From NCBI GenBank assembly GCA_028711705.1, contig JAQTRS010000008.1:1-58506 (forward strand): a DNA stretch of 58,506 nucleotides, written 5' to 3'. The notes under the pieces are model-generated. The model was not told the DNA's origin. It saw nothing but the letters and a program-made list of their open reading frames with translations, and did not search any database. This stretch comes from Candidatus Moraniibacteriota bacterium (GTDB taxonomy: Bacteria > Patescibacteriota > Minisyncoccia > Moranbacterales > UBA1568). Shown here piece by piece: positions 23,357 to 54,427 of the stretch; within the stretch, counting starts at the first letter, position 1; the number at the start of each line of letters is the position of its first letter. The translations under genes and the position numbers were made by a program.

Positions 23357-23474
23357 GTGCGGTGTGAGGAGATTCTTTTGTATGGGGGCTTGCGAGCGCG
23401 GCGGCGCGAGTACGAGGAATTTTTTAGCAAAAAAATATCCGTACCACATACAAAAGAATCTCCTCACACCGCAC
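23357..23474 (-). repeat. Capped palindrome element, copy 1
   Basis: Left arm 23357-23384 and right arm 23447-23474 are perfect 28-bp inverted repeats (outer end GTGCGGTGTGAG, inner end TTTTGTATG). Between them lies a 62-nt core, read on the minus strand as TGGTACGGAT...GCAAGCCCC. The core matches copies 2 and 3 closely while the arms match neither. A TTTTT tract follows the right arm, so this copy could also terminate plus-strand transcripts. It is intergenic, between the carbonic-anhydrase-like gene and the ferric-reductase-like gene. Confidence 0.9.
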
Positions 23475-23567
23475 TTTTTCGGATTGAAAGTTTTTAAAGA
23501 AGTTTTCGTAGTAAGAAAGAGCGGTGTTTTTTCCGGTCGGGTTTTGTTTGTTTTTAACGCATATCAT

Positions 23568-24179
23568 ATGAAAGTGATTCTCGCTCTCCAGAAGGGCATC
23601 ATCGGTATCTCGCTCCTTTTGCTCGCAGGTATCCCGGCAGCTTCTTCATTTTTCGATATGAGTTTCGAGGTGAGGGGATGGTTGTATATATTTTCTTTCG
23701 TTGCGGTCTTTTTGTTGATGCTGGTGCGGCCGTTGGCAGATATCTTTACCGAGCAGTTGTGGGTCAGGCGGTTGGTGATTCTGCGCAAGGGTTTCGGGAT
23801 CTTTTCTGCATCGATTATCGTCGGATTCATGATCGCCTCGATCATCGCTCCGCAAAGCGTATATCTTGCATCGTTTTTTACGGCACACTTCTGGTCTTTC
23901 GGCAATTATGTCGCCTTCGCGCATATCGGGGATATCACCGGACTCATTCTCCTTATCACCTCCAATACATTTTCGCAGAGAATTTTGAAGCTCAATTGGA
24001 AGCGCATCCAGCGCCTTTCGTATGTGTACTTCTATGCCGGCGGAATCTATGAGGCCTTCGCTTTGAATAGCACCTTCGCCTTGTATGCGATTCTTGTCGT
24101 GACCAATATCACCGTGCTTGCATGGGCGGTGAAGTTATGGCGCAAATCTGCCGCTACGCCCGTTACTATCGGAGTGTAA
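23568..24179 (+). CDS. Ferric-reductase-like (MsrQ/YedZ-type) heme membrane protein
   Basis: A 203-aa protein with about six membrane helices. The segment FAHIGDITGLILLITSN followed by LNWKRIQRLSYVYFYAGGIYEAF matches the ferric-reductase-like transmembrane domain, in which a TSN turn and a W-[KR]-x-[IL]-[HQ]-R-L motif precede a heme-binding helix. The second typical His in that motif is Gln here, so heme binding may be altered. The family passes electrons across the membrane with b-type hemes. No MsrP-like partner is present. The start at 23568 is chosen because the longer frame reads through the palindrome element. Confidence 0.72.
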   Translation: MKVILALQKGIIGISLLLLAGIPAASSFFDMSFEVRGWLYIFSFVAVFLLMLVRPLADIFTEQLWVRRLVILRKGFGIFSASIIVGFMIASIIAPQSVYLASFFTAHFWSFGNYVAFAHIGDITGLILLITSNTFSQRILKLNWKRIQRLSYVYFYAGGIYEAFALNSTFALYAILVVTNITVLAWAVKLWRKSAATPVTIGV

Positions 24180-24215
24180 GAGTCGGTGAGTTAGCTTTTT
24201 ATAGTAGGGATATTT

Positions 24216-24249
24216 AAAAATCGCCGGTATATTCCATCGGCGATTTTTT
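24216..24249 (+). terminator. Terminator after the ferric-reductase-like gene
   Basis: AAAAATCGCCG and CGGCGATTTTTT form an 11-bp stem around an 11-nt loop with a U-run. Confidence 0.88.
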
Positions 24250-24280
24250 ATAATGTTTCGTTATAGCGGAAATATTTTTA

Positions 24281-24661
24281 TTACATCCGAAGCTTCGCGA
24301 ATTTTTTCTTGCGGGCAGGGTGGATCAGGGTGTCAAGGTCGGCGTAGAGGGTGGATTCGACGGCATTGCGGCCGGTGTGGAAACCGCCTGCTGGGGTTTT
24401 GAAGCGGCGGTCGAAGACCTCGATGAGATGAGATATTGTTCCGGTGTCAAAGCGCATATCCATCTTTTCCGCTTTACTGTCGAAGACGACTTTCATTTCG
24501 CCGTCGGTGGGGATTTCCTTGATGCGGGCCATCACCCGTTCGATCATGTCCGGTTCGGTGATGAGGGCGGATTGCATGATCCGGGGATTGGCGATGGATT
24601 TGTATTGTTTTATCTCGATCGAGGTATAGGTATCTTTTGGGAACCAGGCGGGCGTTTTCAT
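24281..24661 (-). CDS. Unknown 126-aa protein downstream of recG
   Basis: A soluble, charged protein beginning MKTPAWFPKDTYTSIEIKQY and ending in a lysine-rich tail (ARKKKFAKLRM). The middle reads like alternating strands and helices (MKVVFDSKAEKMDMRFD). No family is recognised. It begins 18 nt after the recG stop on the same strand and is probably co-transcribed, which is the only hint of a link with DNA repair. The basic C-terminus would suit nucleic-acid contact, but that is a guess. Confidence 0.65.
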   Translation of the reverse strand: MKTPAWFPKDTYTSIEIKQYKSIANPRIMQSALITEPDMIERVMARIKEIPTDGEMKVVFDSKAEKMDMRFDTGTISHLIEVFDRRFKTPAGGFHTGRNAVESTLYADLDTLIHPARKKKFAKLRM

Positions 24662-24679
24662 GACATGATGTTTAGGGGA

Positions 24680-26767
24680 TTATTCCAAATGGATCTTCTC
24701 GTCGAAACGGGCGAGGGTTTTTTGAAGAAGGGGGTGCTTCTCGAGTTTCGGGTCCTGAGCGAGAAGGGTTGTCGCTTCGTCGCGCGCGATCTGGATGAGT
24801 TTCACATTGGCGATATTTTCCATGGCGATATCGGGGATGCCGGATTGACGTGTGCCGAAGAGTGCTCCCGGACCGCGAAGGCGCAGGTCTTTTTCCGCCA
24901 GGTCGAAACCGTTCGAGCATTCGACCATGACCTGTAGCCTTTCATTGGAAGCGCTGGCGTTTTCTCCAGGGAAGAGGAAGCAATAGGATTGTTGCTCTCC
25001 TCGCCCGACGCGCCCGCGGAATTGGTGGAGTTGCGAGAGACCGAAACGATCGGCATCCTCGATGAGCATGACGCTCGCGTTGGGGATGTCGATGCCGACT
25101 TCGACGACGGAGGTGGCGACGAGAATATCGAGTTTTTTGTTCTTGAATTCCGCCATGACCGCCTCCTTCTCTTTCGATTTGAGTTTGCCGTGCAGAAGGC
25201 CGATACGCAGTTGGGGAAAGATTTCTTCGGAGAGTCGTTTGTGTTCCGCGACCGCGGCCTTGACTTCGGTGAGCGCGGCCGAGGATTCGACGAACGGAAG
25301 GATGACGAATGCTTGGCGGCCCTTATCGATTTCCCTTTGGATGAACTGATAGACATAGCGGCGATCCGCATCGGATGTGGCGATGCGCGTGATGATCGTC
25401 TTGCGGTCTTTGGGCATCTCATCGAGCAGCGACAGATCAAGGTTGCCGAAGAAGGAAAGCGCGAGAGTGCGCGGGATGGGGGTGGCGGTCATGGTAAGGA
25501 AATGCGGGATAGCATTATCCAGTCCGTCACTAAGTTTGGCGGCTTCCTGTTGAAGATAGGCGCGCTGGGCGACGCCGAAGCGATGCTGCTCATCGATAAT
25601 GACGAGGCTGAGATTATGAAAGCGGATATTTTTTTGCAGGATCGCGTGCGTGGCGATGATGATGCGGGCGATACCCGACTGGATGGACTGCAGCAGCGTT
25701 TCGCGATTAACACTTTCGGCGCCTATGCGCTGATAGGCCTGCGTGAAGAGGGCGGTTTCGAACGGTTCGTTCCGGAAGAGCGTAAAGAGGCTTTCGAAAT
25801 GTTGCTTGGCGAGCACTTCCGTCGGGGCGAGTATGACCACCTGATAGTCGGCGCTCGCAACCGAAAGTGCGGCAAGGGCAGCGATGATGGTTTTTCCCGA
25901 TCCGACATCGCCGTTCAGGAGGCGATTCATCGGGGACGGTTTTTCAAGGTCGCGTGCGATTTCTTGCAAGGCTTTCTGTTGCGCTGCTGTCAGTTCGAAA
26001 GGAAGCTTGCTTACGAATGCTTGCACCTTTTCCGTAGCGGAAGGGAAAGCGATGGCGGTCTCGACATCCCACTGCATTTTGATCTGCAGGGCTTTGATCT
26101 GGATGAGGAACATCTCGTCGAAAGCGAACCGTTTGCGCGCGACCAATCGGTCATTCTCGGTTCGTGGCGAATGTATCGAACGAAGTGCTTGTGTGAGAGA
26201 GGGGAGATGGAGCCGAGAGAGGATGTCCTGCGGGATCAGATCAGTGAATTCGATCGGGCGATTGAGGATGGATTCTATCTGCCAGCGGAGGTATTTTGAA
26301 GTCAGACCATCCGTTTCCGGGTAGATAGGGACGAGCCTTCCGGTATGGATGGCGCTGCGGCTTGAGAATTCGAAAGCCGGACTGCTTATGCAGAAAACGC
26401 CCTTGTCCAGAACCACCTTGCCGGAGACTCTGATGGAAGCATCCTCTTTGAGTGTGGCCGCGATATGCTTCTGATTGAACCAGATGAGCTTGAGCTGACC
26501 GGTTGCGTCTCCGAGTAAGGCTTCGGTCACGAGCATGCCCTTTCGCCAGGTCTTTTTGGTCTCGATGGAAAGGACAATGCCTTCAAAGGTAGCCTTCTCG
26601 TCGGGAATGGCATTGGAAATGGCGAGGATTTCGGAATAGTCTTCGTAGCGGGTCGGGAAATGATACAGTAAATCGCCGACTGTTTCGATGTGCAGCCGCT
26701 TAAGGCGGGCCAGCATGGGCGATTTTATGGAAGGGAATGCGGTGAGTGAAGTATCGAGTGTAATCAT
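24680..26767 (-). CDS. recG: ATP-dependent DNA helicase RecG
   Basis: A 695-aa helicase of normal size that remodels stalled forks and Holliday junctions. The N-terminal wedge domain includes LYHFPTRYEDYSEI and an OB fold to about residue 190. Helicase motifs follow: motif I LNGDVGSGKT (about 284-293), motif II IIDEQHRFG (about 387-395), motif III TMTATPIPRT, motif V SVVEVGIDIP, and motif VI QFRGRVGRGEQQSYC. All are intact. Two overlapping TATACT hexamers on the minus strand (26777-26787) lie only 10-20 nt before the start, so its mRNA may have a very short leader. Confidence 0.97.
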   Translation of the reverse strand: MITLDTSLTAFPSIKSPMLARLKRLHIETVGDLLYHFPTRYEDYSEILAISNAIPDEKATFEGIVLSIETKKTWRKGMLVTEALLGDATGQLKLIWFNQKHIAATLKEDASIRVSGKVVLDKGVFCISSPAFEFSSRSAIHTGRLVPIYPETDGLTSKYLRWQIESILNRPIEFTDLIPQDILSRLHLPSLTQALRSIHSPRTENDRLVARKRFAFDEMFLIQIKALQIKMQWDVETAIAFPSATEKVQAFVSKLPFELTAAQQKALQEIARDLEKPSPMNRLLNGDVGSGKTIIAALAALSVASADYQVVILAPTEVLAKQHFESLFTLFRNEPFETALFTQAYQRIGAESVNRETLLQSIQSGIARIIIATHAILQKNIRFHNLSLVIIDEQHRFGVAQRAYLQQEAAKLSDGLDNAIPHFLTMTATPIPRTLALSFFGNLDLSLLDEMPKDRKTIITRIATSDADRRYVYQFIQREIDKGRQAFVILPFVESSAALTEVKAAVAEHKRLSEEIFPQLRIGLLHGKLKSKEKEAVMAEFKNKKLDILVATSVVEVGIDIPNASVMLIEDADRFGLSQLHQFRGRVGRGEQQSYCFLFPGENASASNERLQVMVECSNGFDLAEKDLRLRGPGALFGTRQSGIPDIAMENIANVKLIQIARDEATTLLAQDPKLEKHPLLQKTLARFDEKIHLE

Positions 26768-26833
26768 AGTACTCTTAGTATAGTATATTTGTACGGGATG
26801 TGGCTAATGAGGGACTGTTACTTGACAAAAATG

Positions 26834-26862
26834 TTGACAAGTGTTTTATGGGGGGATATACT
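26834..26862 (+). promoter_or_regulatory. Promoter of the mraZ operon
   Basis: TTGACA (26834-26839), 17 nt, TATACT (26857-26862). Another TTGACA lies 12 nt upstream (26822-26827) at an unsuitable distance. Confidence 0.88.
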
Positions 26863-26871
26863 GACAGTAAA

Positions 26872-26896
26872 GTGGCGCGAAGTGTCAGGAAGTGGG
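26872..26896 (+). promoter_or_regulatory. MraZ operator repeats
   Basis: GTGGC (26872), GTGTC (26882) and GTGGG (26892) are three GTG boxes at an exact 10-bp period, each preceded by A or AA. MraZ is known to repress its own operon by binding such repeated TGGGN-type boxes between promoter and gene. The site lies 10 bp after the -10 hexamer, overlapping the transcript start, as expected for autorepression. Confidence 0.75.
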
Positions 26897-26927
26897 GAAA
26901 ATGTTGTCAGTACTATCACGGATCGAT

Positions 26928-27362
26928 ATGTTTATAGGTGAATATCTACACAGCATTGATGCAAAGAAACGGCTGGCGCTGCCATCGAAGTTTCGCGGTG
27001 AACTTGGGAATAAGGTGGTCGTGACAAGAGGCCTTGATAATTGTCTTTTCGTATACCCGATGCGTGTGTGGGAGGCATTGGCGGAAAAATTGGGAAGCCT
27101 CCCGGTTGGGGAAGCGGGGACGAGAAGTTTCATTCGGTTGATGCTTTCGGGCGCGACCGATGTCGAAATGGATAGTCAGGGACGAGTGCTGCTGCCGGAA
27201 TACCTCAAGACCTATGCGGGACTGGAGAAAGAAGTCACGGTTTCCGGATTGTTCAATCGCTTGGAAATCTGGGACACCGAAAAATGGAGTGCCTACAAGG
27301 CGGATGCGGAAAAAAATTCTGATGAGATCGCCGAGCAGCTCGGCAAGCTTGGAATCTATTAG
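26928..27362 (+). CDS. mraZ: Transcriptional regulator MraZ
   Basis: A 144-aa protein with two SpoVT/AbrB-like halves. MFIGEYLHSIDAKKRLALPSKFR is the family N-terminus (its first part is diagnostic) and DVEMDSQGRVLLPEYL begins the second half. MraZ forms rings and represses the division and cell-wall cluster through the repeats upstream. The start at 26928 is chosen by homology; a GTG at 26892 would lie inside the operator. It opens mraZ-rsmH-ftsL-ftsI-murF, the classical order. Confidence 0.95.
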   Translation: MFIGEYLHSIDAKKRLALPSKFRGELGNKVVVTRGLDNCLFVYPMRVWEALAEKLGSLPVGEAGTRSFIRLMLSGATDVEMDSQGRVLLPEYLKTYAGLEKEVTVSGLFNRLEIWDTEKWSAYKADAEKNSDEIAEQLGKLGIY

Positions 27363-27401
27363 AATCGCGTTCGGGCTCGTAAATCCTAAGTATCGATTGT
27401 T

Positions 27402-28364
27402 ATGGTTGAAATTCGGCATGTACCGGTGTTGTTGAGGGAAACGGTTGACGGATTGCGTCTTGGGCCGGGCGATACGGTGGTGGACGGAACTCTCGGAAGC
27501 GGCGGGCACAGCCTGGAGCTCTTCGAGAAAGTCTTTCCGGGCGGACGATTGATCGCGATGGATATGGATGCGCTTGCCATAGAGCGATTCAAACGTAGGA
27601 TAGCGCCGATCGGATGGGCGAAGCAGGCTCTGGATGAGGGACAGATACAGCTCTTTCATGCTAATTTCAGTGAGATAGCGGACGTGCTGGATGAAGCGAA
27701 GGCGGAAAAAGTGTCGGGCATCATGGTTGATCTGGGATTTTCGTCTGATCAGATGGATGCAGTCGAAAGAGGCTTGAGTTTCTCTTCGGACGGGCCGCTC
27801 GATATGCGATTGAATCAGGAAAATCCGCTCACGGCACAGCGCGTTATCGCCGAGTATTCTGAAGAGCGATTGACACAGATTTTGAAAGAGTATAGCGAAG
27901 AGCGATTTGCTCGAAATATCGCGCAGGCGATAGTCAAGGAGCGGTCAAAGATATCCATCATGACAACGAAGGCATTGGCAGAAATCGTACAGAGGGCTAT
28001 TCCGAAACGGTATCACGCAAGAAATATTCACCCGGCAACAAAAGCGTTTCAGGCACTGCGAATCGAGGTCAATGAAGAACTCCTGAATTTGAAAACGTTT
28101 TTGCCGCAAGCGATCGGGCGGCTCGCGCCAGGAGGAAGGCTCGCTGTCATATCGTTTCATTCGGGTGAAGACAGGATAGTGAAACAATTTTTTCAGGAGA
28201 ATGCAAGGGGATGTATTTGTCCGAAAGAATTTCCGATCTGCCGGTGCGACACAAGACCGAATATCAAGAAAGTGACCGCAAAACCGATCGTTCCGAGCGA
28301 TGCCGAAGTTGCTTCCAATCCGCGGTCACGCAGCGCAAAGCTCCGGATAGTGGAAAAATTGTAG
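27402..28364 (+). CDS. rsmH: 16S rRNA (cytosine1402-N4)-methyltransferase RsmH (MraW)
   Basis: A 320-aa SAM-dependent methyltransferase. HVPVLLRETVDGL opens the protein, the SAM-binding motif is VVDGTLGSGGHS (about residues 26-37), and LDMRLNQENPLTA and the C-terminal VISFHSGEDRIVKQFF are family hallmarks. RsmH modifies C1402 of 16S, which lies three bases past the intron insertion site in this organism's own 16S gene. It follows mraZ by 39 nt. Confidence 0.96.
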   Translation: MVEIRHVPVLLRETVDGLRLGPGDTVVDGTLGSGGHSLELFEKVFPGGRLIAMDMDALAIERFKRRIAPIGWAKQALDEGQIQLFHANFSEIADVLDEAKAEKVSGIMVDLGFSSDQMDAVERGLSFSSDGPLDMRLNQENPLTAQRVIAEYSEERLTQILKEYSEERFARNIAQAIVKERSKISIMTTKALAEIVQRAIPKRYHARNIHPATKAFQALRIEVNEELLNLKTFLPQAIGRLAPGGRLAVISFHSGEDRIVKQFFQENARGCICPKEFPICRCDTRPNIKKVTAKPIVPSDAEVASNPRSRSAKLRIVEKL

Positions 28365-28417
28365 CGATGATGACGCAGGACCGAATAAAAAGAAAAAGAA
28401 AACATTGCGAATAAGGT

Positions 28418-28735
28418 ATGTTTATGAGCAATCAGAAAAATATACAATCAGTGGCGGCATTTTATAACAAGCTCTCCGTGGGTATCGCGGGGGTGGTTGT
28501 CATTATGGGTATGTGCTACCTCTATACTACCAATAGGGTTGCGGTGCAGGGGTATTCCATCCGTGAGGCAGAGCAGGAAATCGCTTCGTTGAAACAGGAC
28601 AATAAGCAGTTGCGTATTCAGGAAGCTGAACTCAAGTCGCTCTACCGTATCGAGGAGGCAGGCAAGCGTCTGAACATGTTCGAGCCGACCGAGGTGAGCT
28701 ATATCGAGGATACGCATCCGATCGCCCTACGGTAA
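28418..28735 (+). CDS. FtsL/DivIC-like cell-division protein
   Basis: A 105-aa bitopic protein: a short cytoplasmic N-terminus, one membrane helix (LSVGIAGVVVIMGMCYLYT, about residues 19-37), then a heptad-rich coiled coil (REAEQEIASLKQDNKQLRIQ) and a YRIEEAGKRLNMFEP segment like that near the end of FtsL. FtsL bridges FtsB and FtsQ in the divisome. Sequence alone is weak, as in all FtsL proteins; the position between rsmH and ftsI supports the call. ATGs at 28418 and 28424 are both possible. Confidence 0.78.
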   Translation: MFMSNQKNIQSVAAFYNKLSVGIAGVVVIMGMCYLYTTNRVAVQGYSIREAEQEIASLKQDNKQLRIQEAELKSLYRIEEAGKRLNMFEPTEVSYIEDTHPIALR

Positions 28736-28802
28736 GACCTTGCGCTTTTTTCGGTCCCGGCGGATGCGGTGTTCATCCGCGTAAATTTCGGATAAGAAGG
28801 AT

Positions 28803-30575
28803 ATGAAAAAAATACGAAGCCTCAAAGGAAAGAATCAGAAACCATTCGAGACAGCCGGCAATCACTGGAGAATTCATGCTCTGGTTTTTTTTGTCGTTGC
28901 TGGTGCCTGTGTTATCCTGATCCGCTTGTATGTCCTACAGGTGGTGGCTTTTCAGAAATACGGAGATATCGCTGAGAACCAGCACATGCTGTCCGAAGAG
29001 ATCAGCCCTGATCGCGGCGAAATCTATTTGAAAGACACGTCCAATCCATATCCTTTGGCGGTGAATCGACAGCTGTTTTTGGCTTATGTGGCGCCCAAGG
29101 AAGTGGGGGATGCCGATGCGGTCATCCGAGACCTTTCCGATATACTTCAGGTGGATCGGGGGATGATCGCGGAGAAGATGAATCATAAGGAGAGCATGTT
29201 CGAAGTTATCAAAAAGAAGCTTTCCGATGAGGAGGTGGAAAGGGTGAAGGGATTGACACATAAAGGTATCCATCTGATCCCAGAAACCTATCGGTATTAT
29301 CCGGGAGGCGAACTCGCCTCGCAGGTGGTCGGATTCATGGGGTTCGATAAGGACAAGGTGGTTGGACGGTACGGAATGGAAGCTTACTGGGAATCGGAAC
29401 TGCGCGGAAGCTTCGGATCGGTGGTGCAGGAAAAGGATGCGGGCGGACGATGGATTCCTATCGTCGATCGGGATGTCACGCCGGCGGAAAATGGTGACAG
29501 TCTGGTGCTGACGATGAGTCGCGAGGTCCAGTATGAGGTGGAGAAGCGGCTCAAGGATGCCGTGTCCGAATTCCAGGCAGAAAGTGGTACGGTGGTGGTG
29601 ATGGATCCCAATACTGGACGCATCCTTTCGATGGCATCGTATCCGCAATTCAATCCGAACGAGTATTCCAAAGTCGAGGATATCGGATTGTTTATGAATC
29701 CGGCTGTCAGCCAGCCCTATGAATCCGGGTCGGTGATGAAGGCGATTACTGAAGCGATCGGTTTGGAGGACGGGAAAATCCTGCCTGATTCGACCTATGT
29801 GGATACGGGGTCGGTCACGGAAGGAGGGTTTACTATCCACAACTCCGAGGACAAGGTGTATGGGTTGCAGACGATGACCAATGCACTGGAGGAATCTATC
29901 AATACCGGCATGATACATATCGAGAAATTGGTAGGGAATAAGAAGTTCCTCGATTATTTCAAACGCTTTGGTTTCGGGGAGAAAACCGGCATCGAGCTTC
30001 CGGCGGAGCTTGGGGGCAATATCCGTAATTTGAGCGACCTTCGCAATAACGTACAATTCTATACGGCGTCGTTCGGGCAGGGCGTGACCGTGACACCGAT
30101 ACAGCTCGTGAGCGCTTATTCCGTGTTGGCGAACGGTGGAAAACTGATGAAGCCCCGTATCGTCGAGAAGATTATTCATGCCGACGGAAGTGAGGAAGAG
30201 GTGCTGCCGCAGGAAGTCCGCCGTGTCGTGAGCGAGGATACTGCGAAAAAGATGGGTGTGATGCTGCGGAGTGTGGTGACCAACGGCCATGGTAAGAAGG
30301 CGGATGTTCCCGGTTATGTGGTTGGCGGCAAGACCGGAACGGCCCAGGTGGCAAAAACGGGCAGCCTCGGATATGAAGAAGGTATGAATATCGGATCATT
30401 TGTCGGTTATGCCCCTATCAATGATCCGAAATTCGTGGTATTGGTGAAGATGGTGAATCCCAAGGGCGTGCAGTGGGCGGAATCGAGCGCGGCTCCGACA
30501 TTCCAGAAAGTGATGAAGTTTTTGTTGGAGAATGCGAAGATACAGCCGACGGAGAGTGTGGAGGCGAAGCACTAA
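28803..30575 (+). CDS. ftsI: Peptidoglycan transpeptidase (class B PBP, FtsI/PBP2-like)
   Basis: A 590-aa class B penicillin-binding protein. A membrane helix at about residues 27-48 (ALVFFVVAGACVILIRLYV) is followed by the dimerisation domain (SPDRGEIYLKD) and the transpeptidase domain. The nucleophile is in SVMK (SxxK, about residue 314), the second motif is SIN (about 365), and the third is KTGT (about 505). It cross-links septal peptidoglycan. The dcw position next to ftsL makes FtsI the likely role, although PBP2 cannot be ruled out. Murein synthesis is thus retained. Confidence 0.94.
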   Translation: MKKIRSLKGKNQKPFETAGNHWRIHALVFFVVAGACVILIRLYVLQVVAFQKYGDIAENQHMLSEEISPDRGEIYLKDTSNPYPLAVNRQLFLAYVAPKEVGDADAVIRDLSDILQVDRGMIAEKMNHKESMFEVIKKKLSDEEVERVKGLTHKGIHLIPETYRYYPGGELASQVVGFMGFDKDKVVGRYGMEAYWESELRGSFGSVVQEKDAGGRWIPIVDRDVTPAENGDSLVLTMSREVQYEVEKRLKDAVSEFQAESGTVVVMDPNTGRILSMASYPQFNPNEYSKVEDIGLFMNPAVSQPYESGSVMKAITEAIGLEDGKILPDSTYVDTGSVTEGGFTIHNSEDKVYGLQTMTNALEESINTGMIHIEKLVGNKKFLDYFKRFGFGEKTGIELPAELGGNIRNLSDLRNNVQFYTASFGQGVTVTPIQLVSAYSVLANGGKLMKPRIVEKIIHADGSEEEVLPQEVRRVVSEDTAKKMGVMLRSVVTNGHGKKADVPGYVVGGKTGTAQVAKTGSLGYEEGMNIGSFVGYAPINDPKFVVLVKMVNPKGVQWAESSAAPTFQKVMKFLLENAKIQPTESVEAKH

Positions 30576-30596
30576 GTTGTTATCGAATATGCCCGT

Positions 30597-33993: not shown

Positions 33994-34110
33994 GACAGTG
34001 ATCCTTAAAAAATTAGGTGCCTCCAGTATAGCACACCGCGCCGATTTTTGTGTCTATAGACGCCTTGTGGGTGAAAAAATACTCAAAATAGCCGTTTTTG
34101 TTACGACACG

Positions 34111-34139
34111 TTGACAAAAAGCCGATCTTTTGCTATCGT
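34111..34139 (+). promoter_or_regulatory. Promoter of the beta-helix gene and following operon
   Basis: TTGACA (34111-34116), 17 nt, TATCGT (34134-34139), 36 nt before the start at 34176. Confidence 0.65.
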
Positions 34140-34175
34140 TGGCTGTTACTCGTTTTAATTGATAATGTACGGTAT

Positions 34176-40747: not shown

Positions 40748-40864
40748 GGTTGTGGCTGTATACATTTTGTTTTGGGGTACGGATATTTTTTTGCTAAAAA
40801 ATTCCTCGTGCTCGCGCCGTCGCGACTCGCAAGCCCTCAAAACAAAATGTATACAGCCACAACC
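40748..40864 (+). repeat. Capped palindrome element, copy 2
   Basis: Arms 40748-40773 and 40839-40864 are perfect 26-bp inverted repeats (outer end GGTTGTGGCTG, inner end CATTTTGTTTT). The 65-nt core (40774-40838) begins GGGGTACGGATATTTTTTTG and ends CTCGCAAGCCCTC. It lies between rmlA and galU, 22 nt after the rmlA stop. The core is in the opposite orientation to copy 1. The core hairpin TCGCG-CCGT-CGCGA is one base pair longer than in the other copies. Confidence 0.92.
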
Positions 40865-43004: not shown

Positions 43005-43061
43005 AATAAATCGTACGCGGCTGTGGATGTAAGAAAACCAAAACAAAATATCATCCGCCAG

Positions 43062-45473: not shown

Positions 45474-45504
45474 GCATATAAATAGATTCTAAAGGGGGAA
45501 TGTC

Positions 45505-47148: not shown

Positions 47149-47149
47149 G

Positions 47150-47184
47150 AAGGATGGATATGGACTGGATTCATCCTTTTTTCT
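47150..47184 (+). terminator. Terminator after murJ
   Basis: AAGGATG (47150-47156) pairs with CATCCTT (47172-47178), followed by TTTTTC. Confidence 0.7.
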
Positions 47185-47221
47185 TGCCTTTTCGGCTCTT
47201 TTCCTATATGCTTGAGAAGCT

Positions 47222-49054
47222 ATGAATCAGAAATTTGTCCGAAACTTTTGTATTATCGCGCATATCGATCACGGAAAGTCGACTCTGGCTGACCGTTTTT
47301 TGGATGTGACCAAGACTGTGGAGCAGCGGAAAATGAAGGAGCAACTTTTGGATCAGATGGATCTTGAACGCGAGCGCGGTATCACGATCAAACTGCAGCC
47401 GGTACGCATGGACTATCTCTACAAGAGGACGGCCGGAAACGATTCGATTGTGGATGAGGGTTCGTACACACTGAACCTGATCGATACGCCGGGTCACGTG
47501 GACTTTCATTATGAAGTGTCGCGATCTTTGGCAGCGGTCGAGGGGGCGGTGCTTTTGGTCGATGCAACCAAAGGCGTGCAGGCGCAAACTTTGGCCAATC
47601 TGTATCTGGCGATCGAGCAGGGCTTGGAAATCATTCCGGTAGTGAACAAGATCGATCTTCCAGCATCGGATGTCGAGAAGACGAAAAAGGAAATCATCCA
47701 TATTCTCGGTTGCAAGGATGAGGAGATCCTGATGGCGTCCGGAAAGACCGGCATGGGTGTGGAGGAAATTCTGAAGCGGGTGATCGAACGGGTCCCGGCT
47801 CCGCAGGGCGATGCCACCAAGCCTCTCCGTGCCTTGATTTTCGATTCGGTCTACGATACCTACAAAGGCGTCGTGGCGTATGTCCGCATCGTGGATGGCA
47901 AGGTCAAGCGTGATGACGCCATTCAGATGTTTGCGGCGGATAAGGATAGCGTGACGGTCGAAGTGGGGTACTTCAAGCCGCAGTTCGCTCCGACAGCACA
48001 AATCGAGGCGGGGGATATCGGATATATCGCTACGGGACTTAAGGATGTATCGTATTGCCGCGTGGGCGATACGATCACCGTGGTCAAGAAAAAAGAGGAC
48101 GTGATGATTGAGCCACTGCACGGATACAAGGAAATCAAGCCGATGGTCTATGCGAGCCTGTATCCGACCGAAGGAGATGATTACGCTCTGATGCGTGACG
48201 CGCTCGACAAGCTCAAGCTCAATGATGCTTCGTTTTCTTTCGAACCGGAAAGCAATATCGCTCTGGGGCGCGGCTTTCGTTGCGGATTCCTCGGCCTCTT
48301 GCATCTTGAGATCATCCAGGCGCGCTTGGAGCGTGAGTTCCATCAGAACCCGACCATCACGACGCCGTCGGTGGTCTATGAATTGAAATTGCGCGGCATC
48401 GACGAAACAGTGAAGATGTTTTCGCCATCGGAAATGCCCGACCCGGCTTCTATCGAGAAGATATTCGAGCCGTACGTGACGCTTCAGATCGTCCTTCCGG
48501 CAACGTATCTGGGTTCGGTTATGGAGCTCATGAGTTCGATCCGAGCGGAGTACAAGAATACGGAGTATATCGATTCGGAACGGGTGCTCCTTTCGTTTGA
48601 GGCGCCGCTTATGGATGTGATTGTGAATTTCCATGACAATCTCAAGAGCGTCTCGTCCGGATATGCATCGATGAACTATGAATATATCGGGTATCGCGAC
48701 TCGGACGTGGTCAAGCTCGATATCTTGGTGGCCGGGGACAAGGTGGAGGCCTTTTCCCGCATGGTGCCGAAGGGGCGGGCGCATACCGAAGGCTTCGCGA
48801 CGGTCACGAAGCTCAAGCAGGTGATCCCTCGCCATAACTTTTCCGTGGCCCTCCAGGCGGCTATCGGCGGCAAGGTGATCGCGCGCGAAACCATTTCCGC
48901 CTTCCGCAAGGACGTGATCGCCAAACTCTATGGCGGCGACGTGACGCGCAAGAACAAACTCTTGGACAAACAGAAGAAGGGAAAGAAAAAACTCAAGGAC
49001 ATGGGCCGGGTAACCATCCCTTCCAAGGCCTTTTTGGATGTGTTAAGAAAATAA
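47222..49054 (+). CDS. lepA: Elongation factor 4 (LepA)
   Basis: A 610-aa translational GTPase. G1 is AHIDHGKS (residues 13-20), G2 RGITI, G3 DTPGHVD, G4 NKIDLP. The LepA-specific C-terminal domain ends DMGRVTIPSKAFLDVLRK with a lysine-rich stretch before it (KQKKGKKKLKDMG) that lies in the ribosome A-site. LepA back-translocates or remodels stalled ribosomes. The canonical length is about 600. It is preceded by the murJ terminator and is followed by a nucleotidase gene 11 nt on. Confidence 0.97.
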   Translation: MNQKFVRNFCIIAHIDHGKSTLADRFLDVTKTVEQRKMKEQLLDQMDLERERGITIKLQPVRMDYLYKRTAGNDSIVDEGSYTLNLIDTPGHVDFHYEVSRSLAAVEGAVLLVDATKGVQAQTLANLYLAIEQGLEIIPVVNKIDLPASDVEKTKKEIIHILGCKDEEILMASGKTGMGVEEILKRVIERVPAPQGDATKPLRALIFDSVYDTYKGVVAYVRIVDGKVKRDDAIQMFAADKDSVTVEVGYFKPQFAPTAQIEAGDIGYIATGLKDVSYCRVGDTITVVKKKEDVMIEPLHGYKEIKPMVYASLYPTEGDDYALMRDALDKLKLNDASFSFEPESNIALGRGFRCGFLGLLHLEIIQARLEREFHQNPTITTPSVVYELKLRGIDETVKMFSPSEMPDPASIEKIFEPYVTLQIVLPATYLGSVMELMSSIRAEYKNTEYIDSERVLLSFEAPLMDVIVNFHDNLKSVSSGYASMNYEYIGYRDSDVVKLDILVAGDKVEAFSRMVPKGRAHTEGFATVTKLKQVIPRHNFSVALQAAIGGKVIARETISAFRKDVIAKLYGGDVTRKNKLLDKQKKGKKKLKDMGRVTIPSKAFLDVLRK

Positions 49055-49065
49055 TATTTTTGGAA

Positions 49066-49647
49066 ATGAAAATCGGGATCGACCTGGATGATGTGTTGTG
49101 CGACTATGCGACGGCCTTCGTGAAGTATCATAACGATACGTACAGTACGACGCTGACCAAGGCGGATATATGGTCGTATAATTTTTGGGACGTGCTGAAT
49201 ATATCTAGGGAGGAGGCGGTGAAGAGGGTCTATGCTTTCGGGCGGTCTTCGAAGATGATGGATATAGACCCTGTGCCGGGCGCCAAACGTGCCGTGGACA
49301 GCTTGCTTGCGAGGAATCACGAGCTCTCCCTTATCACGGCGCGCGATGCCGATTTCTCGGATATCACCCATCATTGGTTGGCTAGGCACTTCCCGGGGGT
49401 GTTTTCCGATATCCATTTCGTCAATCACTACTCTACGACCACGGCGCCGAGAAGCAAGGGCGATGTCTGCAGGGAAATCGGCGCGAGCATGATGATCGAT
49501 GATTCTTTCGACAATGCGATCAGCTGTCACGGTGTCTGCGGCAGCGGTGTCTTGTTGTTCGATGCCCCGTGGAATGCGAACAAGGAACTTCCGGTCGGGG
49601 TGCACCGGGTCTTTTCGTGGTATGACGTTTTGGAGAAACTTACGTAA
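49066..49647 (+). CDS. HAD-family 5'(3')-deoxyribonucleotidase-like protein
   Basis: A 193-aa HAD phosphatase. KIGIDLDDVLCDY contains the catalytic DxDxV-type motif (nucleophile Asp 7, acid Asp 9), LSLITARD the second motif (T/S), and ASMMIDDSFDNA the acidic motif IV with DD. The layout fits the NT5C family, which removes phosphate from (deoxy)ribonucleoside monophosphates. Substrate is not certain. It follows lepA by 11 nt. A TTG at 49060 would add only two residues; the ATG is preferred. Confidence 0.85.
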   Translation: MKIGIDLDDVLCDYATAFVKYHNDTYSTTLTKADIWSYNFWDVLNISREEAVKRVYAFGRSSKMMDIDPVPGAKRAVDSLLARNHELSLITARDADFSDITHHWLARHFPGVFSDIHFVNHYSTTTAPRSKGDVCREIGASMMIDDSFDNAISCHGVCGSGVLLFDAPWNANKELPVGVHRVFSWYDVLEKLT

Positions 49648-49671
49648 GGCGATTCATGATATAATGGAGTC

Positions 49672-50679
49672 ATGCGCAAGATAGTGAATATTTTGTTGAT
49701 AGGCGTTTCCCTTGGGACTATCGTATACGCGGCAGCCCCGTTTTTGCCGGCGCTTAAAGATCAGCTCAGGCGATCAGCGACTGTCGACGGTCCTGCGGCG
49801 AAGGAATCGGTTACGGGTACGCTGAGGGAAGCGGCACAGAAGGTCGGGTCCGTCCTGCATCTGGCCGATGCCTGCTCCGTTCCGCTCCATTATGCGATCG
49901 GCGATGTCGACCCGCGGTTCGGGATCAGTAAGGAAGCATTCAAGGAGGATCTTCTGAAGGCGGAAGCAACGTGGGAGGGGGCGACTAAGAAGGATGTGCT
50001 GCAGTACGATGCGCAGGCGGCATTTAAGGTCAATCTCGTGTTCGACGAACGCCAGCAGCAGACCATCGAAGCCAAAAAATTGGATCAGAAACTCGATGTC
50101 GTGCAGACGCTCAGGAAGGGGATTTCTTTGGAGTATGACGATCTTTCGGATCAATATGAAACGAAAAAATCGAAGTATGAGGGCGACGTGAAGCGGTATA
50201 AGGCGATGGCCGATGCGTATGAGCAGCGGGTGGAGTATTGGAACGATCGGGGCGACGCACCGGATGCTGAATATGCGCAATTGCAGTCGCAACGCAAGAG
50301 TCTCAATGCGTTCGCGGACGATATAGAAAAGCAGCGGAAGGCCCTCAACAGCTTGGTCGGGCAGTTGAATGACCTGGTCGCGAAGGAACAGCGGGCGGTG
50401 GATTCCTACAACAAAGAGGTGACCACCTATGAGAGCGTGCATGGCAGCGAAAAGGAATTCGATCAGGGGGTGTATACCGGTACGGAAATCACCATCTATC
50501 AGTTCAGCGACACAAGCGATCTTGTTTTGGTATTGGCGCATGAATTGGGGCATGCTCTCGGTATGGATCACGTGGAAAACCCGAAGTCTATCATGTATTA
50601 CCTCATGTCGAAGCAGGATATCGGGAACATCACCCCGAGTGCCGAGGATATCACGGCCCTCAAGCGGCGCTGTTCATAA
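49672..50679 (+). CDS. Secreted matrixin-like zinc metalloprotease with coiled coil
   Basis: A 335-aa protein with an N-terminal signal or anchor helix (IVNILLIGVSLGTIVYAAAPFL). Residues 75-125 (PLHYAIGDVDPRFGISKEAF, then KAEATWEG) resemble the start of a matrixin domain, and HELGHALGMDH (about 290-300) is the zinc site HExxHxxGxxH, followed by the SIMYYLM Met-turn. Between them an insertion of about 130 residues is a long charged coiled coil (for example KKSKYEGDVKRYKAMADAYE). A matrixin domain split by a coiled coil is unusual. The protease would act outside the cell; its target is unknown. Confidence 0.85.
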   Translation: MRKIVNILLIGVSLGTIVYAAAPFLPALKDQLRRSATVDGPAAKESVTGTLREAAQKVGSVLHLADACSVPLHYAIGDVDPRFGISKEAFKEDLLKAEATWEGATKKDVLQYDAQAAFKVNLVFDERQQQTIEAKKLDQKLDVVQTLRKGISLEYDDLSDQYETKKSKYEGDVKRYKAMADAYEQRVEYWNDRGDAPDAEYAQLQSQRKSLNAFADDIEKQRKALNSLVGQLNDLVAKEQRAVDSYNKEVTTYESVHGSEKEFDQGVYTGTEITIYQFSDTSDLVLVLAHELGHALGMDHVENPKSIMYYLMSKQDIGNITPSAEDITALKRRCS

Positions 50680-50683
50680 TGGG

Positions 50684-50712
50684 TTGGCTGTTTTGGCTGG
50701 TAAGAGTATACT
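50684..50712 (+). promoter_or_regulatory. Promoter of trxA
   Basis: TTGGCT (50684-50689), 17 nt, TATACT (50707-50712), 29 nt before the thioredoxin start. Confidence 0.7.
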
Positions 50713-50740
50713 GAAGAAGTAACGCATTAATGTTAAATTT

Positions 50741-51055
50741 ATGGCAATGGAATTTACCGATAAGAATTTCGAACAGGAAGTGCTGCAGAGCGACAAATTG
50801 GTCGTGGTTGATTTTTGGGCGCCTTGGTGCGGACCCTGCCAGATTATGGGGCCAATTCTTGAAGAGTTATCCGGCGAGGTGAAGGATATCGCGAAGGTGG
50901 GGAAGCTCAATGTGGACGATAATCCGGAGACCGCCTCCAAATATGGCATTATGTCCATCCCGACGCTCAAGATTTTCAAGGACGGAAAGAGCGTGAAGGA
51001 TTTTGTGGGTGTCCAACAAAAAGAAGCGCTTAAGGCGGAGTTGTCGAAATTGTAA
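50741..51055 (+). CDS. trxA: Thioredoxin
   Basis: A 104-aa thioredoxin. The active site is FWAPWCGPC (about residues 25-33), with the buried Asp in VVVDFW and the cis-Pro in SIPTLKIF. Length and all marks are canonical. It reduces disulfides in the cytoplasm; no thioredoxin reductase is in this window. It has its own promoter and is followed after 5 nt by yjbQ, likely one transcript. Confidence 0.97.
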   Translation: MAMEFTDKNFEQEVLQSDKLVVVDFWAPWCGPCQIMGPILEELSGEVKDIAKVGKLNVDDNPETASKYGIMSIPTLKIFKDGKSVKDFVGVQQKEALKAELSKL

Positions 51056-51060
51056 ATCCT

Positions 51061-51501
51061 ATGAAAATACACAAACAAAAAATAATGGTGGAAAGCAAGA
51101 CCCAGATCGAATTCATCGATATCACCGATCAGGTTCAGGATGTGATCGATCAGTCCGGCATCCGCGAGGGGCAAGTGCTCGTGTATGTCCCGCATACTAC
51201 GATGAGCGTGGGCATCAACCACAATGAAGCGATGCTGGTGCAGGACTTCACACGCATTTTGTACAAGCTGGTGCCGGTGGATGACCGTTACTCGCATGAT
51301 TTGTTCGAGCTGCGCAAGGAATCGATGTCGGATGGGCGGAGCAATGGGCATTCGCACTGCAAATCGCTGCTTATGGGATCGAGCGAGACGATCCCGGTGG
51401 AAAAGGGACGACTATACCTGGGTGATCGTCAGAACATCTTCGCCATCGAATTCGATGGTTCACGAAAAAGAGAGATTTCGATCCAGGTGATAGGTATGTA
51501 A
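51061..51501 (+). CDS. YjbQ (UPF0047) family protein, thiamin-phosphate-synthase-like
   Basis: A 146-aa protein with the UPF0047 marks: YVPHTTMSVGINHNE (about residues 41-55), NGHSHCKSLLMGSSETIPV (about 100-118) and LGDRQNIFAIEFDGSRKR near the end. The His residues of the central motif cluster around a putative metal. Some members show weak thiamin-phosphate synthase activity; the true role is not settled. The gene follows trxA by 5 nt. Confidence 0.9.
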   Translation: MKIHKQKIMVESKTQIEFIDITDQVQDVIDQSGIREGQVLVYVPHTTMSVGINHNEAMLVQDFTRILYKLVPVDDRYSHDLFELRKESMSDGRSNGHSHCKSLLMGSSETIPVEKGRLYLGDRQNIFAIEFDGSRKREISIQVIGM

Positions 51502-51588
51502 TCTGCGTGTCCGAGGGTCTGAAAAAAAGGGTCTTTTGAAGGAATGTTTGAATGAGATATAACCGCTTTCATGACCTAAATTACGTCT

Positions 51589-52209
51589 ATGAGCAGATTA
51601 GTCAATAATTTGATGCACCATGGATATCTCAGGTCCGATGCTGTGATCGATGCTTTCTGGGGAATAAGTCGCATTGAGTTTATCCCAGAGTACCTTTCCT
51701 CCGAATCCGAAGCGGATGTTCCTTTGCCTATCGGTTGCGGACAGACTATTTCCCAACCTCGCACTGTCGCGCTCATGCTCGAGCTTCTGCAGCCCAAAGA
51801 GAGCCAGATAATTTTGGATGTCGGGAGCGGTTCCGGGTGGACCAGTGCACTTTTGGCCTATATCGTCGGAAAAAAAGGGAAAATAATAGCGATTGAACGC
51901 TTGCATGAGATTTTTGAATTCGGGAAAAAGAATATCGATAAGTTCGGCTATGTGAGCGATGGCACTGTGGAATGCTATGAAGGGGACGGGTACTTGGGTG
52001 ATGAGGCTCATGCTCCGTATGATCGCATCCTCGTGTCTGCCATGGTGGATGAGATTCCCGAGGCGCTCAAACGGCAATTGAAGGTGGGCGGTATCATGGT
52101 TATCCCGGTGCATAACGATATCTGGTATATCGAGAAGCGGGGCGAAGACAATTTTTATAAGGAGGAGTTTCCAGGGTTTTCCTTCGTTCCGTTGGTTCAG
52201 ACATCATAA
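51589..52209 (+). CDS. pcm: Protein-L-isoaspartate O-methyltransferase
   Basis: A 206-aa SAM-dependent methyltransferase. LPIGCGQTISQPRTVALML is the family's isoaspartate-binding segment, ILDVGSGSGWTSALLA (about residues 80-95) motif I, and YDRILVSAMVDEIPEALKRQL the post-motif region. It repairs isomerised Asp residues in ageing proteins. The family's usual TA[AG]A in motif II reads VSAM here. It is 87 nt after yjbQ and 10 nt before mltG. Confidence 0.92.
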   Translation: MSRLVNNLMHHGYLRSDAVIDAFWGISRIEFIPEYLSSESEADVPLPIGCGQTISQPRTVALMLELLQPKESQIILDVGSGSGWTSALLAYIVGKKGKIIAIERLHEIFEFGKKNIDKFGYVSDGTVECYEGDGYLGDEAHAPYDRILVSAMVDEIPEALKRQLKVGGIMVIPVHNDIWYIEKRGEDNFYKEEFPGFSFVPLVQTS

Positions 52210-52219
52210 GATTGTTTGT

Positions 52220-53233
52220 ATGAAAAATGCACTGCGCATCCTCGTGGCATTGGGAGTATTGGCCTTGATAGGTCTTTTTGCTGTAGATTACCGATCGACC
52301 TCATCGCGCGGCGCTGTGCAGTCCGCGCAGGTGATTGAAATCAAGACGGGTGAGAACGCACTCGATGTCGGGGCGAAGCTTCAGGATGTCGGAATCGTTT
52401 CTTGGCAGGGGTATTTCATATACTATATTTGGAAAAAGGATCTGCGCCATGCGATCGTGGCAGGGAAGTATCAGTTGAACGGATCGATGGCTATTCCGGA
52501 GATAACGGAAGTGATCACGCGAGGCGAGGTGGTGCCCAAGGGTGTGACCGTCACGTTCCCGGAAGGCTGGGAGAGTCGGAAGATAGCGGATCGACTGACG
52601 GCCAATGCCCTGCCCGGGGACGCATTTCTCGCATTGGTCAACGACCCGTTGCCGGAATGGCGAAGAGAGTTTTGGTTTTTGCAGGATCTCCCGGAGAATG
52701 CTTCCCTGGAAGGATTCTTGTTCCCTGATACTTATACGTTCGCTTTCGATACGCCGGCCGAAGCCATCGTGAAAAGGATGCTTTCGGATTTTGAGAATAA
52801 GTTTCCTGATACAGCGAAGGAAAGTATAGAAAACCAGGGGAAAAAGGTGTTTGATATCGTCACGATGGCGAGTATCGTCGAGACCGAGGTGAAGACCGAT
52901 GCCGATAGGCGGATGGTGGCGGATATCTTTTGGCGCCGTATAGCGATCGGACAGCCCCTGCAGAGCGATGCGACCGTCAAATATGTGCGCAAGGAAAGCA
53001 AGGTGCAGCACTCTTTCGAGGAGACGCGCGTGGATTCGCCCTACAATACCTATGTCAATAAAGGTCTTCCGCCGGGGCCGATCAGCAATCCCGGACTCAA
53101 ATCCATGATAGCGGCTATCGCTCCGATACCGAATGACTATTTCTATTTCCTGAGCGATACCGCGACCGGCGAGACCGTTTTCTCAGTCACCTTCGACGAG
53201 CATGTGCGCAATAAAACACAACACGGACTCTAA
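52220..53233 (+). CDS. mltG: Endolytic murein transglycosylase MltG
   Basis: A 337-aa YceG family protein. An N-terminal membrane helix (ILVALGVLALIGLFAVDY) precedes a LysM-like subdomain, then LEGFLFPDTYTF (about residues 163-174), ASIVETEVK with the catalytic Glu (about 217), and SPYNTYVNKGLPPGPISNPG (about 272-291). MltG cuts nascent glycan strands and so sets their length. It fits with the murein genes ftsI, murF and murJ elsewhere in the window. Confidence 0.95.
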   Translation: MKNALRILVALGVLALIGLFAVDYRSTSSRGAVQSAQVIEIKTGENALDVGAKLQDVGIVSWQGYFIYYIWKKDLRHAIVAGKYQLNGSMAIPEITEVITRGEVVPKGVTVTFPEGWESRKIADRLTANALPGDAFLALVNDPLPEWRREFWFLQDLPENASLEGFLFPDTYTFAFDTPAEAIVKRMLSDFENKFPDTAKESIENQGKKVFDIVTMASIVETEVKTDADRRMVADIFWRRIAIGQPLQSDATVKYVRKESKVQHSFEETRVDSPYNTYVNKGLPPGPISNPGLKSMIAAIAPIPNDYFYFLSDTATGETVFSVTFDEHVRNKTQHGL

Positions 53234-53238
53234 AAAAT

Positions 53239-54300
53239 ATGGAAACCCTTCATAAAAAATGGCTGTTCGGGGCGCTTTCCTCGGTGATGTTCCTATGTTT
53301 CTTCTTCGGCTGGCTTGCGGTCAATCAAAATATCACAACTCCGGAAGCGAACGGGTGGCTTTTCCCGATCCTTTTATTTTCTTTGGGCATCTCGACGCTC
53401 TGTATTATCGCGTTCGTTTCGAAGGAGAAGCCGATCGTCATTGGCGGGGCCTTGCTTGCCTTTCTTCCGAGCCTGTTTTTCGTGCAGGATGCGAAGTTTT
53501 TACCGTTTTTGTGCGTCGGTATCGTCCTGAGCATCGTGGGACTGTTTTCCATGCGGAGGGATATGGGATTGAATATGCATATCAGCATACGCAGGAGCAT
53601 ACACCATGGAATCGGGTGGCTCATTTTTTCATTCTCCCTCGTTATCGCCTCGCTTTACTACATGCAGATACAGCATGCGAGCGGTGAGGAACTTTTGCAG
53701 AAACTCTCGCTCGACCAGACCTCGCATGCTGTGCTGACGCAGGCATTGGGACTTATGAATCCGGAGTTTCGGAAAGTCAATCAGGAAAATGTGACAGTGG
53801 ATGAGTTCCTGCTGAATTTTCAGAAGGATCAATCAACAGGAGATGAGGAAGTGCCGGCGCCCTCCGATGAGGAACTTCTGCAGATGGCCGGTATCATGCC
53901 ATCCGATCCGCGTGCGCCGCAGGCTTTGACTCAGATCAAAAAAAGCCTGAAAGATAGCACCGGATCCATCAATACGAAGCGTTTGGTGCTCGAGCAGGGA
54001 CGCCGCCAGCTTTCCGGTATCGTCGGGGTGCCGCTTTCCGGAAACGAGCCTATCGCGGATATCTTATCACAGGTGATCGATCAGCGCATCCGGACCTATT
54101 TCAGGCCCGATGTAGCGAATGGTTCCGCTTCCGTGCTGCCCTTTGTGCTCTCGGTCATTTTGTTCGTGACGCTCTGGTCATTGGGCGCCTTTTTAGGTAT
54201 CTTGTGGCGCTACCTTGCTGCCGCGATTTTCTTGGCACTGTGTTCTTTCGGAGCTATCAGGATTCAGAGGGTGATGGTGGAACAGGAAGTTATAGAGTAG
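53239..54300 (+). CDS. Unknown polytopic membrane protein, 353 aa
   Basis: Four helices in the first 110 residues (for example WLFGALSSVMFLCFFFGWL and FPILLFSLGISTLCIIAFV), a fifth at about 128-148, then a soluble central domain of about 150 residues with acidic and Gln-rich parts (DEEVPAPSDEELLQMAGIM), and two helices at the C-terminus. No family is recognised. It starts 5 nt after mltG, so it is likely co-transcribed and may work in the envelope. The palindrome element copy 3 follows the stop by 7 nt. Confidence 0.8.
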   Translation: METLHKKWLFGALSSVMFLCFFFGWLAVNQNITTPEANGWLFPILLFSLGISTLCIIAFVSKEKPIVIGGALLAFLPSLFFVQDAKFLPFLCVGIVLSIVGLFSMRRDMGLNMHISIRRSIHHGIGWLIFSFSLVIASLYYMQIQHASGEELLQKLSLDQTSHAVLTQALGLMNPEFRKVNQENVTVDEFLLNFQKDQSTGDEEVPAPSDEELLQMAGIMPSDPRAPQALTQIKKSLKDSTGSINTKRLVLEQGRRQLSGIVGVPLSGNEPIADILSQVIDQRIRTYFRPDVANGSASVLPFVLSVILFVTLWSLGAFLGILWRYLAAAIFLALCSFGAIRIQRVMVEQEVIE

Positions 54301-54307
54301 GTGGGAC

Positions 54308-54427
54308 GTGATTTGTGAGGGTGCATTATTTTTTTTGGGTACGGGTATTTTTCTGCTGAAAAATTCCTCGTCCTCGCGCCGCCGCGCTCGCAAGCCCCAA
54401 AAAAAATAATGCACCCTCACAAATCAC
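54308..54427 (+). repeat. Capped palindrome element, copy 3
   Basis: Arms 54308-54336 and 54399-54427 are perfect 29-bp inverted repeats (outer end GTGATTTGTGAGGG, inner end CATTATTTTTTTT). The 62-nt core (54337-54398) begins GGGTACGGGTATTTTTCTGC and ends CTCGCAAGCCCC. Its first hairpin reads ATTTTTC-TGCT-GAAAAAT where copies 1 and 2 have ATTTTTT-TGCT-AAAAAAT, a compensatory change. It lies between the 353-aa gene and the dnaJ control region. Confidence 0.92.

Follow-up and report, generated by a model that had tools for sequence, protein, structure and literature searches.

The closest known kind to the element described here is the Rickettsia palindromic elements (RPEs). The palindromic elements of Rickettsia and Wolbachia are described as 100–150 bp long, with several families per genome, and as sitting both in intergenic regions and in frame within unrelated genes; insertions of orthologs coincide in locus, possibly at hot spots, and each of the RPE repeats is said to encode a conserved peptide (PMC10969869, PMC3767692). 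Template switching in yeast genes, coding genes included, is reported to homogenise the arms of inverted repeats and to flip their spacers (PMC8604942), the same process has been proposed for RNA stems (PMC8794818), and coding inverted repeats of nematomorph mitochondria undergo concerted evolution (PMC6649704). Here we analysed a stretch of 58,506 nucleotides from a Candidatus Moraniibacteriota bacterium (contig JAQTRS010000008.1, positions 1 to 58,506; hereafter the window, meaning the whole stretch), in which a conserved core occurs three times, each time between the arms of a long perfect inverted repeat. An earlier reading of the letters of the window (the original prediction) had guessed that this was a new mobile element, and the many copies, many sites and patchy distribution reported below support the guess; comparison of the copies, which lie in both orientations and in frame inside genes, indicates that the insert is or was mobile. 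With a probability of roughly two in three, our results point to a small mobile palindromic insert of ~60–66 bp whose flanks are made and kept complementary by replication template switching.

The three palindromes were all found where they had been reported (23357–23474, 40748–40864 and 54308–54427), and belong to a family of 15 core copies in their 1.16 Mb, 21-contig genome. Where the arms are intact, the element measures ~115–125 bp with its arms, which are exact over 27–33 bp in 10 of the 15 copies and over 20, 20, 19, 10 and 9 bp in the other five. When the left flank of one copy was set against the right flank of another, the match reached at most 11 bp (mean 6.0, 210 pairings). In a set of 178 distinct copies from many genomes the arm score was ≥14 in 89, and re-pairing the flanks of different copies of this set gave such a score in 0.1% of cases, the highest being 15. 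The claim that the arms are private to each copy thus stands for the outer arms of most copies but not for the 8 nt directly beside the core, which are conserved across all 15 copies of this genome (none of 1000 rotated controls as high), nor for five copies (L005, L011, L013, L014 and L015) whose arms (GAATTAT..) are recognisably related. Copies sharing the same arms had been named as a finding that would speak against the prediction; the arms of this five-copy subfamily are related but not identical. In the ten copies outside it the inner 8 nt are likewise conserved (0/1000 controls reach this level); for the outer 22 nt no clear signal by position emerged (62/1000). These observations suggest that the core moves together with short inner arms and sometimes with longer ones.

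The source of the outer arms was sought in genes that carry the insert in some genomes and lack it in others, a comparison that the original prediction had proposed. Some loci could not be matched by the anchors used for measuring lengths, and repeated loci of one genome were counted once. The gene rsmE is filled at the same place in five genomes of one genus (L265–L269), and we compared these with the six closest (L270–L274 and L278) of the 25 insert-less orthologs. The filled proteins have 48–50 amino acids from F-D-x-S-G-E to IGPEGGW and the empty ones 28–29, a gain of ~20 amino acids or 60 nt, yet the palindrome with its core covers ~100 nt. The outer left arm coincides with the conserved S-G-E region (S-G-E in four filled genes and G-G-E in one, SGE or SGD in five of the six empty orthologs), and the right arm mirrors it as a reverse complement that follows the codons of the species concerned, as in GGCGAAG/CTTCGCC of L268 and GGTGGAGAATC/GATTCTCCACC of L269. 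The right arm encodes S-P, which none of the six empty genes has at that place. In mnmA, the distance between anchors is 43 amino acids in nine distinct filled genomes vs 17–25 in 10 orthologs (exactly 21 in six of these orthologs without a recognised insert), a gain of ~66 nt; rows with other recognisable inserts (eight by pattern, L247 by eye) were kept out of the empty set. Here the left arm covers S-Q-D-K-N-like codons, and several empty orthologs are close to it (S-Q-D-V, S-Q-D-R-N, S-Q-D-K-K, S-Q-N-K-N). Model R2 of the core matched at the insertion site in 5/5 rsmE and 9/9 mnmA filled genes, and in the 16 empty loci it gave two matches only (L251 and L255), both outside the gene site. 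A further, weaker match of the core model outside the insertion site was seen at five mnmA loci (L223, L230, L240, L251 and L255).

Since the net gain is small and the left arm resembles the host, most of each arm appears to occupy host positions of which one side was rewritten. At rsmE and mnmA, comparison with the empty genes indicates that only the core and a few bases on each side are new DNA. One of the options in the original prediction, that insertion creates the arms by copying the flanking host DNA in inverted orientation, therefore fits both genes in that the left arm is largely host coding sequence, with the amendment that the copy overwrites host sequence and is not added to it.

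A second option had been that the arms are continually corrected by template switching, and this is borne out in part. We compared 20 arm positions in each of 22 pairs of filled orthologs: 123 positions differed in both arms, 23 in the left arm only, 29 in the right arm only and 265 in neither, that is, 123 both-arm against 52 one-arm changes. The pairs were picked from loci already seen to be orthologous and filled (L263, which had no match, was left out, and L079 and L047 were excluded), and since pairs share species a Fisher test on the in-step change overstates its certainty. Judged from these comparisons, the arms seem to be host positions in which one side stays host-like, the other is its reverse complement, and the two change together between orthologs, so that copying of the flank and later correction look like one process. 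The core itself changes direction at one and the same site: in rsmE it lies on the plus strand in L265 and L266 and on the minus strand in L267, L268 and L269, and in iscS it is plus in four and minus in two. Such flips may come from template switching between the arms or from separate insertions. A second, unrelated core (GGTCTGG..CCGAGGACC) has an arm score of ≥14 in five of 10 distinct copies and in none of fewer than 600 re-pairings; as this core has private arms too, the behaviour is not a property of one core sequence.

The core is predicted to form a three-way junction, with the arms as the closing helix P1, a hairpin P2 that has a single bulged base and a TGCT loop, and a hairpin P3 whose outer stem varies. 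We assessed the fold in an alignment of 42 of 62 selected cores, drawn from 173 candidates, in which 90.9% of 993 cells over 24 pairs were paired vs 73.0% after shuffling, with 185 double changes vs 51.8. Sliding the partner register left 37.8–57.7% paired, and slides of one base 50.8 or 57.7%. The cores had been gathered with a filter that demanded pairing in P2, G.T allowed, and left P1 and P3 unfiltered; the complete pairing of P2 (42/42 cores) is therefore partly by construction. In P2, both partners have changed in six of the 10 pairs, and in none has one partner changed alone. Two P2 pairs are free of the search pattern and could be followed without a pairing filter in 170 copies, where we counted 333 Watson-Crick pairs of 340 (T-A 185, C-G 144, G-C 2, A-T 2), the others being T.G (2), C.A (4) and one more. 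P2 changes with few intermediates, although T-A and C-G are both common.

The mechanism that we favour would begin with the folded core bringing its two flanks together during replication. The nascent strand would then fold back and copy ~15–30 nt of itself instead of the true template, as in quasipalindrome template switching, and would return in register, whereby length would be kept. With recurrent switching, drifting arms would stay complementary; the core would be flipped when a switch crosses the loop or a new insertion takes place. The rewriting of arms thus probably occurs during replication, and neither cargo nor a host function is needed to explain the pattern. We hold as rather unlikely the stronger version in which arm building belongs to the life cycle of the insert, the core being selected to fold on single-stranded DNA at the fork, prime fold-back synthesis and make the hairpin needed for recognition and movement. 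If this were true, the mobile element would take the greater part of its structure from its host, even from the codons of essential genes, and would not have to carry it along.

Several observations weigh against template switching as set out above. In-step change is weak in pheT (two positions in both arms, six one-sided), in L218/L210 (three and five) and in three iscS pairs with L332 (11 and 11), and it could stem from repeated independent insertions at a hot spot, each copying a conserved left flank. A single genus of another family supplied almost all of the orthologs compared. The window copies have no nucleotide-level empty site, their nearest genomes being of other genera (the dnaN region was compared over 54 genomes, their own included, with DnaN identities of 46–56% within the family, and gaps were read in those of 30 loci whose frame could be found), and that one of their arms is native is inferred from another genus. 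The S-G-E stretch of rsmE is absent from the 19 more distant of the 25 insert-less orthologs, and the case for its being native is thus built on the six closest; in the orthologs of L203 (groES-groEL) and L197 neither of the arms can be recognised, and the ortholog of L188, where two inserts lie side by side, lacks the whole region, arms included. Older copies are not kept perfect: the arm middles of L186 and L198 are unpaired, and 89 of the 178 copies score <14. In 88 more diverged arms, read on the core strand, A.C mismatches outnumber G.T (71 vs 42, others 175; P 0.008), a lean that could reflect some selection on the hairpin of the opposite strand. Finally, in the genome of the window the arm length is rather uniform (27–33 bp in 10 copies), and the five copies with related arms fit arms that at least sometimes travel with the insert.

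The alternative that survives best, which we nevertheless judge unlikely, is that the arms are made once, when transposition copies ~20–30 nt of one flank in inverted form, with no later correction, and that differing arms of orthologs mark separate insertions at a hot spot. The native-like left arm and complementary right arm of rsmE and mnmA would be expected from it, and the iscS loop of one genus is indeed a hot spot for several insert types. A net gain of only ~60–66 nt does not sit well with it, as the arm is written over and not added; several pairs at the same site agree in orientation and frame, L337 and L338 also (by eye) in right-flank sequence beyond the arm; and P2, which lies inside the insert and does not derive from the flank, shows double substitutions as well.

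Lower still we place selection for a functional RNA or single-stranded DNA hairpin, with arms and P2 evolving by compensatory substitutions. It would account for the strong covariation, the conserved loops and bulge, the long perfect stems and the mild lean to opposite-strand wobble in diverged arms. The intermediates that it would pass through are nearly absent, however, with G.T in 2 of the 340 free P2 pairs, and in arms scoring ≥14 we counted 12 G.T against 18 A.C and 20 other mismatches in 2294 pairs. Copies also lie in both orientations relative to genes and in coding strands in several frames, and selection on a hairpin does not predict that one arm equals native coding sequence.

The third option of the original prediction, that the core inserts into the loop of host palindromes already present, is very doubtful. 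Orthologs of the L206 locus in two genomes (G114 and G156) lack the core and have a short-loop palindrome at that place (by eye), the iscS gene of L342 holds a bare 16-bp palindrome with no core, and the window has a bare 24-bp palindrome at 11978–12025. The G114 palindrome, on the other hand, carries beside its tiny loop the inner arm of L196, a copy of the same genome, so that loss of a core is as likely; moreover, the six closest empty rsmE orthologs have no inverted repeat above the maximum of shuffled controls. The inverted-repeat check of coreless loci covers these rsmE and bare-palindrome results. In the window, the core-less palindromes at 11978–12025 (24 bp, perfect) and 12535–12584 (24 bp at 92%), with a loop of none or 2 nt, are possibly ordinary terminators, or scars of a lost core as may be the case at L206. 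Chimeras of assembly or amplification, which had been named as a ground for refutation and which the largely metagenomic origin of the named genomes concerned might invite, can practically be dismissed, as five genomes have the same core and design, in an open frame, at one position of rsmE and nine at one position of mnmA, and control counts of the reversed motif found none.

We examined 134 copies for mechanical open reading frames (ORFs): 38 overlap one of ≥80 codons, and 62 of the other 96 lie between ORFs of one strand. Some of the overlapped ORFs are real genes, with long open proteins and the insert in frame. NCBIfam models identified MnmA, RsmE (subfamily model), TsaD and PheT above the curated cut-off, and a NifS/IscS-type cysteine desulfurase with a strong score that is below the single-model cut-offs; uvrB, argS, tgt, pyrD and others were named by eye. 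All of these genic copies are in genera other than that of the window. Among 27 proteins, translation of the core uses two frames of one strand and three of the other, so what is conserved is the nucleic acid and not a peptide. The genic copies probably sit at tolerant protein loops, judging from the variable length of those stretches. Of 28 iscS loops in one genus (g77; L332–L360), six carry this core, six the second core, five a type CCTCACCC..GAGAGG and others further palindromes (types by eye). One protein loop thus takes several unrelated kinds of palindromic insert, an insertion hot spot in a housekeeping enzyme.

A variant of the core (GGTCAC..) adjoins tRNA genes at eight loci (L059, L061, L073, L088, L107, L114, L115 and L122), and several of these have the 3' tail of the tRNA copied directly on one side (by eye, 20 nt in L061 and 21 nt in L122) and in inverted form on the other. 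We set aside our first reading of this variant as an integration site, since such copies are also compatible with fold-back copying. In the gap between groES and groEL (genes named by eye) of L319 (genome G135), an ortholog that lacks the insert, we observed tandem CCCTAA repeats, a telomere-like motif.

The hosts are tiny, mostly uncultured bacteria. In the GTDB collection, at least 114 stretches contain the exact hairpin motif GGATATTTTNNTGCTNNAAAATTCC, which gave 0 matches in viral contigs, so there is no sign of a phage origin of the core in the latter. It is present in 12 of 383 genomes of an even sample of the class, and in 24 of 80 genomes of the best-sampled genus (g77); control counts of the motif read backwards, made beside these scans, were 0. 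Elsewhere the motif was met in, among others, genomes titled Parcubacteria, Paceibacterota, Nomura-, Zambryski-, Taylor-, Wildermuth- or Yonathbacteria. The insert was found in the Patescibacteria lineage that includes Parcubacteria/Paceibacteria. Regions L325 to L331 were used in pattern scans only. A covariance model built from the 42 diverse cores, a search that had been suggested for this genome and related Patescibacteria, extended the family to 74 of the 383 genomes and 54 of 294 genera of the class; no more than 13 candidates were scored in any genome, and several of the searched genomes had supplied sequences to the model. When 29 of 30 loci with the best model matches, some of them already known, were inspected for flanking inverted repeats, as had also been suggested, the arm score was ≥14 in 10.

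The features of the three window copies are collected in Table 1. Of the arm lengths given earlier (28, 26 and 29 bp), the first is correct and the other two are 27 and 32 bp; that the core of copy 1 lies on the minus strand had gone unmentioned. The three copies had also been described as lying between same-strand genes. This is right for copy 2, between an RfbA-like gene (below the model cut-off) and GalU, and for copy 3, between an unnamed ORF and DnaJ, and only partly so for copy 1, whose neighbouring ORFs are on one strand, the upstream one having no NCBIfam match, and where a mechanical ORF runs through the element. An Rfam 15 scan of the window gave no match above the gathering score except the 3' end of a 16S rRNA gene at the contig edge (1–156). 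Elsewhere in the same genome, on contig C12, two copies (L003 and L010) flank dnaN in the same orientation, in the order dnaA, copy, dnaN, copy (genes named by eye).

Table 1. Positions of the arms, cores and core hairpins of the three window copies
Feature	Position	Strand	Remark
Copy 1, first arm	23357..23384	+	28 bp, perfect
Copy 1, conserved core	23385..23446	-	
Copy 1, P2 hairpin of core	23416..23440	-	TGCT loop
Copy 1, P3 hairpin of core	23389..23414	-	
Copy 1, second arm	23447..23474	+	28 bp, perfect
Copy 2, first arm	40748..40774	+	27 bp, perfect
Copy 2, conserved core	40775..40837	+	
Copy 2, P2 hairpin of core	40781..40805	+	
Copy 2, P3 hairpin of core	40807..40833	+	
Copy 2, second arm	40838..40864	+	27 bp, perfect
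Copy 3, first arm	54308..54339	+	32 bp, perfect
Copy 3, conserved core	54340..54395	+	
Copy 3, P2 hairpin of core	54343..54367	+	
Copy 3, P3 hairpin of core	54369..54394	+	
Copy 3, second arm	54396..54427	+	32 bp, perfect

The family can serve as a repeated experiment of nature on the origin and persistence of long perfect inverted repeats. Related cores at many sites, together with filled and empty protein-coding orthologs, allow insertion, overwriting, homogenisation and loop flipping to be told apart. They also reveal that housekeeping proteins of Patescibacteria have been lengthened and partly rewritten by small palindromic inserts. For a family in 54 of 294 sampled genera of the class, which Rfam did not recognise in the window, we offer a covariance model.

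Among described systems, integron attC sites conserve structure more than arm sequence and are located just after genes, with conserved outer boxes and a variable centre. In the present element it is the centre that is conserved, with variable outer ends, and we therefore dropped an integron-like cassette site as a candidate, with no search made for integrase genes or cassette arrays. Miniature inverted-repeat transposable elements share terminal inverted repeats; the outer arms of most copies in the genome of the window differ, five of them sharing an outer motif. REP sequences and the REPINs associated with RAYT transposases resemble the element in being small hairpins of many copies, often just 3' of genes. 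REP families are described as carrying GTAG or CGTC tags (PMC3733652); the foot of P2 carries neither in the 42-core alignment and mostly has CAC or TAC. Within the one genus g77, the exact core motif is not associated with RAYT-like Y1 HUH transposases, Y1_Tnp genes being present in 16 of 24 genomes with the motif and in 39 of 56 others (P 0.80). Genes of this kind occur in 55 of the 80 genomes of that genus, with up to 13 Y1_Tnp matches per 0.4–1 Mb genome, many for genomes so reduced.

The likeness to RPEs is greater, as the insert is palindromic, of ~115–125 bp with its arms, repeated (15 copies) and, in genera other than that of the window, inserted in frame in unrelated housekeeping genes. 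It differs in its lineage, in having a conserved core of ~60 bp with locus-specific arms, and in the lack of a conserved peptide, the core being read in several frames on both strands. We likened it to RPEs and set it apart from them by their descriptions, not by sequence comparison, and do not file it among them. With quasipalindrome correction it shares the homogenisation of arms and the inversion of the spacer, also in coding genes, and its arms look complementary by copying and homogenised over time, as products of template switching are, on the evidence of species comparison. In yeast, the process is reported to start from short existing repeats and to change few bases (PMC8604942), whereas here an inserted core would seed long new arms from host DNA, repeatedly and in many genomes. 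A search of titles and abstract openings in the open-licence literature returned no description of a conserved core with locus-specific arms.

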